From a virus, in IMG/VR virus record IMGVR_UViG_3300010316_000062, positions 1 through 21,679 of that record: 21,679 nt of DNA; one strand, 5' to 3'. The notes beneath the pieces were generated by a model. That model was not told where the DNA came from. It saw nothing but the letters and a program-made list of their open reading frames with translations, and made no database searches. Positions 117 to 14,219 of the stretch are shown here, one piece after another; the first letter of the stretch is position 1; every line of letters begins with the position of its first letter. A program made the translations under genes and the position numbers.

Positions 117-209
117 GGCTGGCTGTGGCTGGCTGTGGCTGGCTGTGGCTGGCTGTGGCGATGGCGTGGCTGTGGCGTGGCTGTGGTTGGCTGTGGTTGG
201 CTGTGGTGG
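117..209 (+). repeat. 10-bp tandem array (GGCTGTGGCT)
   Basis: Four perfect GGCTGTGGCT units occupy 121-160 (the last one differs in its final base), preceded by a partial unit at 117-120. The array continues as degenerate GGCTGTGG units to about 209. A 10-bp period puts every unit on the same face of the helix, which suits cooperative protein binding or bending. Translation gives a Gly/Trp/Leu/Ala low-complexity string, so this is not coding. Confidence 0.85.
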
Positions 210-679: not shown

Positions 680-1915
680 TTAGAACCCTCCAGTCACACT
701 GATGGTCCAGCCACGGCTACGCATAGCTGTGATAGCCGCTTCACCTGTGGCAGATGGGGCTGACCCACCAGACTGATTGAATGTGCCGTTAGATGTCGCA
801 GCGGTGTTTATGCTTGTAAGGATGTTGTCGATGGAGGTTTGAGTTAATGCCGTGTTGTCGAATGCGAAGGCGAAGTCGATACAAGGCGTAGCGTCGAACA
901 TATTAGAGGGGAATGAAGTCAGCGAAGAGCAACCGCGCCATGCGTTTGTCATGTTTGTTACGGAAGACGTGTCGAGCAATGGGAATGAAGCCAGCGAAGA
1001 GCAACCGTACCATGCGTTTGTCATGTTTGTTACGGAAGACGTGTCGAGCACTGGGAATGAAGTCAGCGAAGAGCAACCGTACCATGCGTTTGTCATGTTT
1101 GTTACGGAAGACGTGTCGAGCACTGGGAATGAAGTCAGCGAAGAGCAAGCGTACCATGCGTATGTCATGTTTGTTACGGAAGACGTGTCGAGCACTGGGA
1201 ATGAAGCCAGCGAAGAGCAACCGCGCCATGCGGCCTGCGCGGCTGTTACGGAAGACGTGTCGAGCAATGGGAATGAAGTCAGCGAAGAGCAATCGCGCCA
1301 TGTGTTTGTCATGTTTGTTACGGAAGACGTGTCGAGCACTGGGAATGAGGTAAGGTAATTCATACCCCTCCAATAGGCTGAAAGGTCGGATACACCTCCA
1401 TAGTCCCCACCGCCAAATGAAGCCTCGATTTCCTGCTTCTCTTTTATGGACAGAGATCCTTCTATACCAAAGAGACCAGTGATGTCAGGCCCCGGCCAGT
1501 AGGCACCGCCTAGTGTTGTTAAACCAGAAGGAAGAGATACACCATAAGTAGCTGTGCCCTCAGTCGTGCCGATGACCATGTCTCCCACAAGGCCACTACC
1601 GGGAACAGTGACGATCACGCCGTCGTCAACCCGGTCCATGACCAGCCTGTTCGGGGTCTCTTGGAACACAGGTTGCGTACCTGCGGAGCCTGTCTCAAGC
1701 TCGTAGCCATTGGGGCTAGAGTCCCCTGCAGTGTCAACAATGTCACCTGCAGTAGCAACAACTCCGGGAGCGCTCTCCACTGTCCCGGTCTCAAACTGAT
1801 ACCAAAAACCGAAGCGACCTGTGAATAGCGCTAAGACATCTACGGCCACTTCACCAAAGTATCCAGAGACCCGCAAAGGGGAAGCTACGACCCGGTTAAG
1901 GAGTTGCTTAAGCAT
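680..1915 (-). CDS. BspA-like repeat protein, probable virion surface or adhesion protein
   Basis: This 411-aa protein has a unique N-terminal half. It is followed by six 24-residue repeats of the BspA/DUF285 type, with consensus like SSVTNMTNAWYGCSSLTSFP, and a C-terminal segment with LTQTSIDNIL, SNGTF and RGWTISV. DUF285 repeats are leucine-rich-repeat-like units found in bacterial surface adhesins and in some phage structural proteins. The start codon directly abuts the stop of the upstream 86-aa gene (TAAATG), so the two are probably translationally coupled. The gene lies downstream of the terminase, at the position of T7 19.5, and behind a probable phage promoter. I infer a receptor-binding or decoration role. 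The repeats differ from one another only at amino-acid-changing positions. Confidence 0.8.
   Translation of the reverse strand: MLKQLLNRVVASPLRVSGYFGEVAVDVLALFTGRFGFWYQFETGTVESAPGVVATAGDIVDTAGDSSPNGYELETGSAGTQPVFQETPNRLVMDRVDDGVIVTVPGSGLVGDMVIGTTEGTATYGVSLPSGLTTLGGAYWPGPDITGLFGIEGSLSIKEKQEIEASFGGGDYGGVSDLSAYWRGMNYLTSFPVLDTSSVTNMTNTWRDCSSLTSFPLLDTSSVTAAQAAWRGCSSLASFPVLDTSSVTNMTYAWYACSSLTSFPVLDTSSVTNMTNAWYGCSSLTSFPVLDTSSVTNMTNAWYGCSSLASFPLLDTSSVTNMTNAWRGCSSLTSFPSNMFDATPCIDFAFAFDNTALTQTSIDNILTSINTAATSNGTFNQSGGSAPSATGEAAITAMRSRGWTISVTGGF
911..1342 (-). repeat. Six tandem 72-bp repeats inside the BspA-like gene
   Basis: Units begin at 911, 983, 1055, 1127, 1199 and 1271, exactly 72 bp (24 codons) apart. 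Because 72 is a multiple of three, every frame stays open, which creates false ORFs on both strands. Fifteen of the 24 codons are identical in all six units. The other nine codons vary, and every difference changes the amino acid. The unit at 1199-1270 is the most divergent (AAQA in place of NMTN). Confidence 0.95.
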
Positions 1916-2618: not shown

Positions 2619-2637
2619 CTATGGTGGCGGGTAATTA
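2618..2637 (-). promoter_or_regulatory. Probable phage RNA polymerase promoter, phiOR-like
   Basis: The minus strand reads TAATTACCCGCCACCATAGC, starting with the TAA stop of the large terminase gene. A copy with 19 of 20 identical bases lies at 19626-19645 in the same relation to an upstream stop codon. The sequence resembles the T3 late promoter (AATTAACCCTCACTAAAGGG) in its AT start, CCC centre, CACC-like block and ATAG end. In T7 the phiOR promoter lies in the same place, directly after gene 19. Transcription would run leftwards into the small genes and the BspA-like gene. Confidence 0.7.
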
Positions 2638-4407
2638 TCCGTCGTTCCACCGGGCGGCTTTCATGGCCAGCTCGATTGAGCCACCCATAGCGAGGATGTC
2701 GAGGCTGATGCCGTCCTGTCCGCTCCACGATGCAAGCTCTGCTTCGAGGATCTCAGCAGCACGTTGGTCCATCTTGTCTTCTTCGTTCTGGCCCATCTGC
2801 TCGACCCAGTAGGCGACACCGATAGCTAGGGCGTCCAGTCGGTCATCATAGGCTAGAGCGCCACGGGCTTTCGTGATCCGCGTGAGCTGGTACATGAGCT
2901 GCCTCTTCTGGGCCTGCTCGGTCGGGTAGTGCTGCGTGCTCTCCAGATCCTTACGGAGGACGCTGTCGCATAGGATCAGCTTGTGCTGGTTCATGACAGG
3001 CTCAAGGGTGTCGATGATCCGCGCCTCTTTCTGGGTGTTGTGCTTCACCTCTTCCAGCGTCATCGGATACCCGGCCTTCTTGAGGAAGGGTGTGAACAGC
3101 TTGGTGAACATACCGTCACCGAAGTTGCCCTCAATGATACCAGCGTTGCACTTGTTCCGCTTGGCGATCTGGGCAAGCTCTTCCATGACGGGGTCGTCGT
3201 ACCCGCCCTGCATCCCGCCAGCCTCTGTCACGTAGAGGTAGCCGTTCAGCATCTTGACCACAGCGTAGGTGGTCTCATCCTTGCCGCGACCTGAGGGGTC
3301 AATGGCCAGCACGGATCCTTCGTAGGGAACCCAGTCGCCAAGCATGGCAGCGGGCCTGTAGTAGCGATCCCCATTGAGGCCAGGGCAGTGCATGTCCTTG
3401 AGGGTGTACATGGGGTCAGCGGACCAGATGATCCGTTCAGAGGCGACCTCGTTGTTCAAGCCAGTGATCAGCAGATCGGACAGCTTGAGAGGGTACTTGT
3501 CACGGTCGGACAAGGCTGTGTCGAGCATGAACTGCAGGGAGAAGCCAGAGCGACCATAGGAGGCCTCACGCTCCATGAGATCCTGATCATCGAAGCGGAT
3601 TGGATCTGTGGGGTCACCGACCAGTAGCGTCCCTTGTACCATCTTTTCGAGGATCGTAGGGGCGATGGCTGCGAGGTAAGAGTTTGCAAGTCGGGTGCCC
3701 TTGGCGTCAGGCAGCTTAGGGGCACGTGCTGGCCAGATGCGGACCACGTAGCCACGCTCTGGGAGCTGGTTGTACAGGCTCTCTTCGGTCTGGGGGGTGC
3801 CAAGGTACTTGACGGACCCACCGGGCTTTAGAACCGCGTCAAACTCCTTCACACGCTCTGCCAGCTTGTCACGCATGGTCTGCGTCTCGGAGTTGTTAGG
3901 AACCTCAACGTCATCTGCAATGATCTCGTCGGCGCGGCCACCCGTAAGCTGACCGAAGATCCCTACGGACTTGACCGAGGGGCTGTGGTCGGCACGCGCT
4001 GGGCCTACGTCGAAGCTGATCTTGGACTGCCGCTGATCGGCGCGGGGGATCAGGTGCTTTAGGATGTCCATGTCGTTGATAAGACGAAGGGTGAAGGTGG
4101 AGAACTGATCGGCGCGTTCCTTGGAAGCGGACACGACCATGATCTTAAGCTGAGGGTTGCGTAGTAATCGCCAGCACACGTAGGCCGAGGTGATCCAGCT
4201 CTTGCCAACACCACGGAAGGCTTCGGTGATCATCCGGCGTGGGCCATACTGCAGCCAGCTTGCGATGTCGAACTGTACGGGTGTGGGGTCTGGCAGCATG
4301 AGGTGCCGCCACACGAGGATCAGAAAGTAGCGGAGGTCTTCAAAGATCTTCCAGTCTTCCTCTGGGTACTCCTTGCGCCACCACTTGACGTCGTCTTTAA
4401 TGGCCAT
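2635..4407 (-). CDS. terL: Terminase large subunit (T7 gp19-like DNA packaging motor)
   Basis: This 590-aa protein is close in length to T7 gp19 (586). The N-terminal ATPase carries the Walker A motif AFRGVGKSWIT (about residues 63-73) and the Walker B motif EIIADDVEVP (about 161-170). The C-terminal nuclease domain shows VLAIDPSGRGKDETTYAVV (Asp near 370), GIIEGNFGDGMF (about 423-433) and DDRLDALAIG (about 521-530), which supply the acidic metal-binding residues. The enzyme pumps concatemeric DNA into the prohead through the portal and cuts it at genome ends. AAAGGA lies 10 nt before the ATG. It follows the small terminase gene after a 115-bp gap. Confidence 0.97.
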   Translation of the reverse strand: MAIKDDVKWWRKEYPEEDWKIFEDLRYFLILVWRHLMLPDPTPVQFDIASWLQYGPRRMITEAFRGVGKSWITSAYVCWRLLRNPQLKIMVVSASKERADQFSTFTLRLINDMDILKHLIPRADQRQSKISFDVGPARADHSPSVKSVGIFGQLTGGRADEIIADDVEVPNNSETQTMRDKLAERVKEFDAVLKPGGSVKYLGTPQTEESLYNQLPERGYVVRIWPARAPKLPDAKGTRLANSYLAAIAPTILEKMVQGTLLVGDPTDPIRFDDQDLMEREASYGRSGFSLQFMLDTALSDRDKYPLKLSDLLITGLNNEVASERIIWSADPMYTLKDMHCPGLNGDRYYRPAAMLGDWVPYEGSVLAIDPSGRGKDETTYAVVKMLNGYLYVTEAGGMQGGYDDPVMEELAQIAKRNKCNAGIIEGNFGDGMFTKLFTPFLKKAGYPMTLEEVKHNTQKEARIIDTLEPVMNQHKLILCDSVLRKDLESTQHYPTEQAQKRQLMYQLTRITKARGALAYDDRLDALAIGVAYWVEQMGQNEEDKMDQRAAEILEAELASWSGQDGISLDILAMGGSIELAMKAARWNDG

Positions 4408-7363: not shown

Positions 7364-8269
7364 TTAGATTACTGACGTGTCGGCTTGCATGTCGCCGTTA
7401 GCGTCGATGTAGAGCGCCCCAGTTGCGAGCGATCCGACGTATTCAAGTGTGAGCATTCCTGTGTTCGTCACCGCGAAGTTGCCAAATGCCAGAGCCATAG
7501 GGCTGTCGCCTAGAGGGCCTTGGTCGCCTGTTGGACCTTTATCACCAACACCACCGGGTTCGCCTTGGATGCCCTGAGGGCCTGTGTCGCCAACAGTTAC
7601 AATTCCAGCTGGGCCTGTTGGACCAACGCTGCCTTGAGCACCTTGGATGCCCTGCGCCCCCGCGACACCGATGACACCTTGTGGTCCTGGAACACCACGA
7701 GGGATGCTGAGTTCCATTGTACCAGTGTCGATGGAGTATGAAGCTATTGGGGTATCGGTGTAGTCCAGAGGCACTACCGTTACGTTCAGATCGGAAAGCT
7801 GATTACGGATCGCCACAACCTCGCCAAGACTTGAAGCCTCGTAGGTGGCAATAAATCCCAAAGGCACAGCGTCTGTCAGCTCCACCGGGGATGCTAGGTT
7901 GGTCAGGCGGCGGTCTTCGGCATCCCACACGGACCCATAGGCACGGCGGATGGCGTCGAAGCCTACGTCTCTGGCCTCCTGCGCTAGGTAAAGAGACTGC
8001 TGGTGGATAAGATCGAGATCGTCAGCCTCAAGGTTTGTTCCGTTGTTGAAGTTAATGAGGTCAGTGTCAGGTGTTACCCGATAGACCCGCACAAGTGCAT
8101 TCAGTGCAGGAGCAGGTGAGATGTTGATTGTTGAAGATGAGTTGAACGTGAACGACACCTGATCAGCGTCAACCTCAACGAAGACGTGAGTGCGGTCTAG
8201 GTATGGAAACGGGATATTGAACAACGTGGTCGCGCCATCACCGAACGTGGTAGAGGTAGCTGTTGTCAT
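7364..8269 (-). CDS. T7 gp17-like tail fibre (N-terminal attachment domain plus collagen stalk)
   Basis: This 301-aa protein begins with the T7 tail-fibre N-terminal domain, which docks the fibre on the tail. Signs are FGDGATTLFNIPFPYLDRTH, residues 70-85 (DLINFNNGTNLEADDL) and HQQSLYLAQEARD (about 89-101). Residues 192-255 are Gly-X-Y collagen-like, followed by a short C-terminal domain (TNTGMLTLEYVGSL, YIDANGDMQADTSVI). It is shorter than T7 gp17 (553 aa), so receptor binding may be passed to the next proteins (6461-7351 and the tailspike), with this one as adaptor. The only good Shine-Dalgarno sequence is 34 nt upstream behind a hairpin. Confidence 0.85.
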   Translation of the reverse strand: MTTATSTTFGDGATTLFNIPFPYLDRTHVFVEVDADQVSFTFNSSSTINISPAPALNALVRVYRVTPDTDLINFNNGTNLEADDLDLIHQQSLYLAQEARDVGFDAIRRAYGSVWDAEDRRLTNLASPVELTDAVPLGFIATYEASSLGEVVAIRNQLSDLNVTVVPLDYTDTPIASYSIDTGTMELSIPRGVPGPQGVIGVAGAQGIQGAQGSVGPTGPAGIVTVGDTGPQGIQGEPGGVGDKGPTGDQGPLGDSPMALAFGNFAVTNTGMLTLEYVGSLATGALYIDANGDMQADTSVI

Positions 8270-11981: not shown

Positions 11982-14219
11982 TTATTTGGGTGGTGTGTAG
12001 CCGTACAGCGTCCATACCTGTTGGCGGTACGCATCTGTAGTTAGGCCACTGTCTGCTGCAGCTTTTGCAATGCCAGCATCTGAGTAGCCCGCAAACGGAT
12101 CGGCTACGGTTTCGACACCGGATGCCACACTGTCGAGTTGTGTCTCGGACTGCTGGCTGTACAGGTCAATCGGCTGATATTCTGACTTCTTCATCAGCTC
12201 ACGCCGGGTATCACGAACGAACTTTCTCAGCTTAACGACAGAGGTCTCTGGGTTGTCCTCCAAGAAGATCAGGATCTCGTCCAGAAACTCTTCTTCGTAG
12301 GCCATCGCAGCTTTGAAGCCGTCACCAATGTTGTTGCCACTGATGTCTTTCAGGATGCGTCCGTCCGAGATTATGCTCGCACCGTCGTCGATCATGCGCC
12401 GAACGCTCTGGTCGTTGATCTTGTCTTCGAACTTGGCGACCCTTTCGAGGTCATCAAACAGGGCCATGCCCACAGACGACGGGTACTCGGTGCCAATGCC
12501 TTTCAGGATGCGTAGCTCCATCTCGTCCTTCGGGAAAGAGCTGCGATTGATGGCGAGACGTAGCTCACCGACTTGCTCGTGGTTGGTGTTGACGGTGTAA
12601 GTCTCTTGCTGGAGCTGGCGCTGCAGGTTGTGCATCTCCATTGCGAGGGAAGGCTCCCCCGCCTCTGTCAGAGCACTGATCATTTTCTTGTGGTCCCCGA
12701 AAGGGTCACTCATGATCGCCCTGTATCCCGCCTGCTTCATCACCCGCGTCTCTTCAACGCGCTGTTGGTCCTCTACGATCTTGGCGCGAGAGTCTGTCTC
12801 CCACGCTTCGTCGTCGATGTCCTCTGCAGCCTTGCGTCGTGCCTCACGCACCCAAGCGATGTTGCCAAGGGGACCGTGCCCAGTGTCGAGTTGTTCAAGG
12901 ACTGTGAGCATACTGGAGTCCCCAGAAGCCATCGCCTGTTCGATCACCGCGTGGACGGCCATCTCGTTGACCTTCTTTGGGTTCATCCCATTGGAGACCG
13001 CTGAGTTGATCATGCTTTGGATGTCGTGGGTGGCTGTGTCTTGGTAGTTCCCTGCGACAGGTGCCCCGCTATCGAACTCATGGATGGCCTGGACCAGCTC
13101 GGCCTGCATGGCGTTTCCATAGGATCCCCAAGCGTTGTCTTGTCCAGCGCCGGGTTTAACGAGGTCGATGTGGAAGCTGTCACCCATGTATTCAGGACCA
13201 AGGCCGAAGCCTTTTGCGCCATTGCGGGCTGCAGTGATCATGAACTGGCGGGAGCGAGGATCGTCAGCCTTCAATCGGTTACCCTGTGGGTCCACGATGT
13301 AGAAGTCAGCTGCGGTGCCAGTCTTGTGGCGCGTTGATCCGTGCTGCGGCTTGTCACCCTCCTGCCCTGAACCAACAACAATGCGCGTGCCCTTGCCTAG
13401 GACAGCCTCAGCGGATGCGCCGAGGACGTCGAGGATCTCATCATTAGGGCGATACGGGCGGGCCTTGCCCTCCAGCTGGAACTCAAACTCGACCGAGTGG
13501 GACAGGTTCGAGAGCACGGGAGGGCTATAGGGACCGCTGTTGCCCATTAGGGCGAGGCCTAGGCCAGCACTGAACTCGTCTTCGAACTCACCCATGCGTG
13601 CCTTTGAGCGGTACGACATATGGTGGCTCATGAGAGCTTGTTCAGCCTGTAGCAGCCTAGGTGTGAAGGCCTCTGCGGTAATCAGCGGGTCGATCCCGTC
13701 AAGGCCTTTACCTTTGGTGTAAGCCACCGTCTGGTTCTGCATCCACGCCTGCACAGCTGCAGGGTCATCCATGCCCTGAACGCCACCTTCGTTGTCCGTC
13801 CACTGTTGTTGCATGTGGGCAGCGAGGCCGACCCCGATCCGGGTAGCTTTCTGGGACACGAGGCCCCGACGAAAGTGGGGTGATGCCCCAACCAGATCGT
13901 CAGCTTTGCTGGTGCCGTTGATCTTGTCTGTTGCTCTCACCTCAGTGATCAGTTGCTGCCACCCGTTCTTGTTGGCCAGAAGGCCTGAGGATGGATCCGT
14001 GAACTGTGCGGCTGTCATGCCAGCAGCGAACTCACGCTCGGCCAGCTCTTTGTTGCGCGATCCCAAGAACCTTTGAAGCTCTGGGTTGATACGCGACAAG
14101 GACTGGGCAAGGCTTTGCAGCCCGCTGGTTTGTGGGGCTTCCAGACGTGGTGCTACGAAGGTGTCGACTGGTGCCGCTACGGGCGTCAGCGACGGGTCTG
14201 AAACGACTTTTTGAACCAT
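11982..14219 (-). CDS. Internal core protein (gp15-like) with embedded M15-type peptidase
   Basis: This 745-aa protein (T7 gp15 is 747 aa) lies in gp15 order. Residues about 260-370 look like a peptidase M15 (D-Ala-D-Ala carboxypeptidase / VanY-like) domain. GSTRHKTGTAADFYIVDPQG gives His298 and Asp305, and GDSFHIDLVKPG gives His350, matching the HxxxxxxD...H zinc triad. The flanks are long helical regions typical of core and ejection proteins. As a virion component it could trim host peptidoglycan crosslinks during DNA entry. AAGGAAAC lies 9 nt before the ATG at 14219. The domain assignment is by motif; the rest is inferred from order and size. Confidence 0.8.
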   Translation of the reverse strand: MVQKVVSDPSLTPVAAPVDTFVAPRLEAPQTSGLQSLAQSLSRINPELQRFLGSRNKELAEREFAAGMTAAQFTDPSSGLLANKNGWQQLITEVRATDKINGTSKADDLVGASPHFRRGLVSQKATRIGVGLAAHMQQQWTDNEGGVQGMDDPAAVQAWMQNQTVAYTKGKGLDGIDPLITAEAFTPRLLQAEQALMSHHMSYRSKARMGEFEDEFSAGLGLALMGNSGPYSPPVLSNLSHSVEFEFQLEGKARPYRPNDEILDVLGASAEAVLGKGTRIVVGSGQEGDKPQHGSTRHKTGTAADFYIVDPQGNRLKADDPRSRQFMITAARNGAKGFGLGPEYMGDSFHIDLVKPGAGQDNAWGSYGNAMQAELVQAIHEFDSGAPVAGNYQDTATHDIQSMINSAVSNGMNPKKVNEMAVHAVIEQAMASGDSSMLTVLEQLDTGHGPLGNIAWVREARRKAAEDIDDEAWETDSRAKIVEDQQRVEETRVMKQAGYRAIMSDPFGDHKKMISALTEAGEPSLAMEMHNLQRQLQQETYTVNTNHEQVGELRLAINRSSFPKDEMELRILKGIGTEYPSSVGMALFDDLERVAKFEDKINDQSVRRMIDDGASIISDGRILKDISGNNIGDGFKAAMAYEEEFLDEILIFLEDNPETSVVKLRKFVRDTRRELMKKSEYQPIDLYSQQSETQLDSVASGVETVADPFAGYSDAGIAKAAADSGLTTDAYRQQVWTLYGYTPPK

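Follow-up and report, generated by a model that had tools for sequence, protein, structure and literature searches.

The window, that is, the whole 21,679-nucleotide stretch analyzed here (IMG/VR virus record IMGVR_UViG_3300010316_000062), encodes a protein with a central array of tandem repeats (Table 1). Unit boundaries were set at the TTC of FPVL..., in frame on the minus strand from 1345 down to 914, which is the same 432 bp as the 911-1342 interval of the preliminary description shifted by one codon. Tandem Repeats Finder reports 909-1348, with a period of 72, 6.1 copies and 91% matches. The unit alignment and counts confirmed the earlier account of six 72-bp units with 15 of 24 codons identical at the DNA level in all six, nine variable codons and no synonymous difference. 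The variable codons are GTG/TTG, AAC/GCC, ATG/GCG, ACA/CAG, AAC/GCC/TAC, ACA/GCA, CGC/TAC, GAT/GGT/GCT and ACT/GCT. By codon position (1/2/3) the variable columns of the window array number 8/6/1, with 14 of 15 at position 1 or 2. Unit 1 carries a block in which AAC ATG ACA AAC is replaced by GCC GCG CAG GCC. An imperfect 9-nt inverted repeat (1218-1226/1237-1245) covers this AAQAA block and adjoining codons, a weak hint of a possible template-switch scar.

Table 1. Features of the array gene and its surroundings in the window.
Feature	Position	Strand	Remarks
Array gene	680..1915	(-)	411 aa; BspA-type LRR (DUF285/PARCEL) protein by Pfam and AlphaFold, with the NCBIfam match just below cut-off
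Repeat array, six 24-codon units (72 bp)	914..1345	(-)	15 invariant and 9 variable codons
Unit 1 with divergent block AAQAA	1202..1273	(-)	9 base changes within 12 bases
N-terminal beta-rich domain, residues about 96-189	1348..1630	(-)	From alignment; predicted strands at 99-153 in the model
C-terminal cap (TSIDNILTSI...SRGWTI), conserved	683..913	(-)	Present alongside arrays of further phages, among them S-SKS1 and S-CBWM1
ORF of up to 124 aa	1916..2290	(-)	Its stop codon directly precedes the array gene's ATG; no family match
Terminase large subunit	2635..4407	(-)	phrog_38, E=5e-113; used to find nearest relatives
T7-type tail fiber N-terminal domain and collagen-like repeats	7364..8269	(-)	PF03906, E=3e-34

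By alignment, the N-terminal domain of the array protein is common to other phage arrays, such as those on contigs L009 and L013. Across the homologs, the layout is a variable N-terminal domain, then the units, then the conserved C-terminal cap.

Family, predicted fold and phage context

The array protein matches the Pfam families DUF285 (PF03382; E=1.1e-13, 51.5 bits against a cut-off of 25) and LRR_5 (PF13306; E=1.8e-8, 34.8 bits against a cut-off of 27.7). A single-sequence structure model was poor (pLDDT 48), and an AlphaFold model built from an alignment was used instead (mean pLDDT 78; mostly 86-97 across the repeats). This model matches LRR proteins at Z 14-16, including the BspA-like 4fs7 (BACOVA_04585; Z 16.0 over 228 residues) and 4h09 (EUBVEN_01088; Z 14.1 over 196 residues), although both are cellular proteins with only 16-17% sequence identity to the window protein. 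It also matches 66 viral models at E<=0.001, the top one from S-SKS1. We conclude that the array gene product is a BspA-type LRR (DUF285/PARCEL) protein with a predicted LRR solenoid.

PARCEL/DUF285 repeats were described by Roske et al. (2010) as tandem arrays of ~25 residues with conserved hydrophobic and variable hydrophilic positions. The arrays are partly located in mobile elements, the mycoplasma proteins include surface lipoproteins, and the repeat-coding DNA has a recurrent dyad symmetry, with palindromes found using MEME (PMC2996958). The window protein resembles this family in its DUF285 match and in a match to the NCBIfam PARCEL repeat just below the cut-off of 30 (TIGR02167; E=6e-7, 29.0 bits). 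It differs in its phage structural context and apparently in the DNA of its units, where a search for inverted repeats returned a single 9-nt inverted pair in one unit. Single-strand folding z is about 0 for five window units. As these two analyses gave no recurrent PARCEL palindrome, it was rejected as a probable cause of the DNA identity. An overlapping gene enforcing the identity was also rejected, the plus-strand frame giving only weak, unrelated Pfam matches. Several other reading frames are open across the array, which is uninformative because the 72-bp period makes open frames cheap.

Homologous arrays with the cap are encoded by the Synechococcus phages S-SKS1 (AGH31651) and S-CBWM1 (gp93, annotated as a putative tail protein), with 53-55% identity over array and cap. 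They vary at the same positions as the window array but have other N-terminal domains and synonymous differences between units.

By its T7 tail fiber N-terminus, terminase, major capsid protein and internal virion protein, the window phage is T7-like, probably an Autographiviridae-like podovirus. In the late region near the terminase, the array gene comes immediately after a small ORF, and the main tail fiber is encoded apart from it. The small ORF and the array gene are likely co-translated, judging from their abutting stop and start codons; no homology was detected between this ORF and the one adjoining the array in L009. L090, the relative closest by terminase (74% identical), has at the locus of the array (L090:8440-10950) an unrelated 836-aa protein with a SASA (sialic-acid-specific acetylesterase) carbohydrate-esterase domain, as expected of an exchangeable host-surface module. 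Elsewhere, arrays are often found among genes for the tail sheath, tail tube, capsid or head, and some homologous array proteins are annotated as tail or fiber proteins.

The array gene recurs letter for letter in a second IMG/VR contig, L001, which shares 11.5 kb with the window. Within this overlap all differences fall in a non-coding TGGCTG-type repeat region, near 118-190. The tandem repeat itself lies at window 118-206, and L001 differs there by 10 nt in length, the sole length difference, plus one base change nearby. An assembly artefact, against which the preliminary description had cautioned, was rejected at the level of single contigs since L001 has the identical array, though a copy-number collapse common to both short-read assemblies may have occurred.

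L001 extends ~5 kb past window position 1 and there encodes a pentapeptide protein, a MarR-like regulator, a tyrosine integrase and a tRNA-Leu, the last two lying 4-5 kb beyond the array gene. At L001:14627-16448 the integrase is followed by the tRNA-Leu(UAA) and by an ORF in which a T7-type RNA polymerase may begin; the N-terminus of such a polymerase is suspected at this contig end and gave no Pfam match. The T7-like phage may be temperate, with the tRNA marking its attachment site. Four near-identical elements of ~75 nt (L001:12323-12397, 13014-13088, 13350-13424 and 13604-13678) lie among early-region ORFs and share a conserved strong hairpin (-24 to -27 kcal/mol, z -2.0 to -2.9). They have no match in Rfam and are possibly RNA-processing or regulatory sites. 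Beside them, the 84-aa pentapeptide-repeat protein (L001:13094-13348) has a 15-bp repeat at the DNA level.

Base changes between repeat units

At least 17 base changes, a minimum count, separate the six window units and none of them is synonymous. With an expected synonymous fraction of 0.27-0.30, the probability of 0 of 17 is 0.002-0.005 if the changes are taken as independent. However, nine of the 17 form the one block in unit 1; with the block counted once there are about nine events, the fairer count for this array, and P rises to 0.04-0.06. The window array is real and its pattern suggestive, but by itself the window is not decisive. As these statistics are modest, inferring selection required the sequences of other phages.

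We found 79 array loci in viral contigs and only two in cellular genomes. An exact DNA search for the framework in IMG/VR returned the same phage only. A non-redundant set of 57 arrays (585 units) was analyzed, with the units anchored at their conserved W/F. Most of these arrays have abundant synonymous differences from unit to unit, the observation that the preliminary description had said would speak against diversification, and whole-unit pN/pS is mostly 0.35-0.9. The lack of synonymous change in the window is thus a sign of the youth of its array and not a rule of the family, and the proposed recent expansion is supported.

The selection signal was found at five positions, -5, -3, -2, +1 and +2 relative to the conserved W/F. 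Among 142 unit pairs at least 85% identical (22 arrays), pN at these positions is 0.295 against a pS of 0.13-0.14, while framework pN is 0.042. With the window array left out, pN/pS is 2.16 at the five positions (bootstrap over arrays 1.56-3.10) and 0.31 in the framework, these being simple counts and not codon-model fits, with recombination-linked pairs only partly handled by the array bootstrap. Because the five positions were picked after looking at the data, a held-out test was run in which the top five were chosen on a random half and tested on the other half. This gave a pN/pS of 1.73 (1.48-2.06) that was never <=1, and positions -3, -2, +1 and +2 came up in every split. For eight positions defined solely on the window array, pN/pS is 1.48 (1.10-2.06) in the most similar pairs of the other arrays and 0.99 at 75-85% identity. 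There is an excess of non-synonymous change at the same five positions across phages. Diversification of one set of residues, as first proposed from the window, therefore stands in a sharper form, with pN about twice pS at five positions in other phages and a ratio of ~0.3 in the framework; the absence of synonymous change does not carry over to the family.

Codons at the variable positions favor NNY. For amino acids that allow a third-base choice, the Mantel-Haenszel odds ratio against the rest of each gene is 2.56 (57 arrays, L003-L087).

Recombination within arrays

Contigs L010 and L011 are 99% identical and differ mainly in one unit. The left part of unit 2 in L011 is like unit 3 and its right part has the same codons as unit 1 throughout, so that one block, carrying synonymous as well as non-synonymous changes, was copied from a neighboring unit. 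The difference may also be an assembly chimera in one of the two contigs. Repeated blocks of units occur in L014, and identical unit pairs are found in L014, L049, L073 and L080. When unit codons 2, 16 and 22 of the window array are compared pairwise, two of the three pairs contain all four combinations, a pattern expected from recombination or recurrent change.

Near-identical contigs otherwise carry identical arrays, L010/L011 being the exception, and on this ground hypervariability within populations was rejected. With arrays mostly identical in near-identical phages, no runaway hypermutation is seen, and diversification is not fast at the sampled time scale.

Proposed function of the variable residues and competing explanations

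We propose, with a probability of roughly 0.68, that the array protein is a virion-associated host-binding LRR solenoid in which recombination within the array homogenizes the units and selection diversifies one stripe. That the protein is in the virion, that it binds the host and that the five positions are surface-exposed is what we infer from the data above. The gene would encode an adhesin (a tail or head fiber accessory) consisting of the N-terminal beta domain, a six-unit solenoid and the C-terminal cap. Its units would stem from recent tandem duplication, with unequal crossing-over and gene conversion in the array maintaining their similarity. The W/F-flanking residues at -5, -3, -2, +1 and +2 would face the solvent, and since equivalent positions of equal solenoid units stack in register, they would form a stripe along the solenoid. 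Selection for altered binding to host surfaces would favor amino acid changes at these five positions. Differences would therefore pile up at the first and second codon positions, whereas the framework, synonymous sites included, would remain uniform.

The five variable positions alternate with hydrophobic or core ones (-7, -4, -1, 0, +3, +6 and +9), suggesting that the variable ones face outward. On a reading of the motif, the LxxLxL strand would be +6 to +11, with conserved outward residues, and the variable stripe would lie on the other side or the edge. The preliminary description expected a receptor- or immune-facing surface. A receptor-facing one is plausible by the reasoning given here, and an immune-facing one found no support.

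A different explanation is neutral concerted evolution, in which the array is young, its framework is under purifying selection and exposed positions drift, the lack of synonymous change being small-number luck and one multi-base event. It draws on the P of about 0.05 in the window with the unit 1 block counted once, on the synonymous change abundant in most homologous arrays and on the imperfect inverted repeat in which the block lies, a possible trace of template switching. However, relaxed constraint brings pN/pS near 1 at most, and the five positions are at 2.16 (1.56-3.10), or 1.73 when held out; we consider the neutral account unlikely. That the protein does not bind the host at all, but is a decoration, inter-particle, lysogeny-related or cell-surface protein of infection whose variable face serves another partner, seems to us quite improbable. 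The phage may be temperate, given the integrase and tRNA-Leu on L001, and surface lipoproteins are known among mycoplasma PARCEL proteins (PMC2996958), yet no signal peptide or lipobox is evident by eye in the N-terminus of the array protein, and the gene lies in the late region by the terminase, where the nearest relative has the esterase-domain protein.

The proposed host-binding solenoid shares with phage diversity-generating retroelements (DGRs) the concentration of change on few codons of a probably host-facing protein. A DGR or similar templated mutator would use AAY codons in a template repeat to rewrite the variable codons, and the NNY bias and the changes at codon positions 1 and 2 are what it would leave. 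The bias is also expected if NNY ancestors changed only at positions 1 and 2. Unlike in phage DGRs, no RVT_1 reverse transcriptase was found in any of 50 records (the window, L001 and other array-bearing contigs, which may be fragments), while three control genomes were positive. Within the window, the unit core was found only inside the array at up to 3 mismatches, leaving no template repeat there. These searches bear out, and for the reverse transcriptase extend to 50 records, the earlier remark that neither element is in the window; on their basis a DGR was rejected. Such a mutator would also need to rewrite every unit of each array separately. The suggestion that many changes derive from A gained no support, near-identical phages mostly carrying identical arrays, and we regard templated mutation as highly improbable.

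The DUF285/PARCEL family and its variable hydrophilic residues are already known (PMC2996958); that paper describes sequence variation, and the word "synonymous" is absent from its main text. What is new is the selection pattern across phages. In the open-access literature, which leaves subscription papers mostly uncovered, we found no paper on site-wise or diversifying selection in phage LRR arrays of this type. The recurrence of the same five positions in many phages suggests that DUF285/PARCEL repeats, a functionally uncharacterized family, form a host-facing surface in general, and it predicts which residues contact the host in a protein class found in many environmental phages. The array would also be a naturally occurring, modular scaffold for binding, one that needs no retroelement to diversify and relies on recombination and selection.

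More tentatively, phages of several morphotypes may share an evolved scheme for diversifying host binding with PARCEL-type LRR arrays, in which near-identical framework codons serve as recombination anchors for shuffling and renewed duplication of units, and about five stacked residues per unit are under positive selection; we hold this broader claim to be possible but doubtful. If true, phages would have a heritable analog of the LRR-based repertoires of immune receptors that works without reverse transcriptase. The variable lymphocyte receptors (VLRs) of jawless vertebrates are assembled somatically from genomic cassettes. Like VLRs, the phage arrays consist of LRR cassettes with a constant framework and variable residues, and the predicted fold matches them at Z about 14-15. 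Unlike in VLRs, the variation of the phage arrays is heritable and, from the motif, the variable positions would lie outside the LxxLxL strand.
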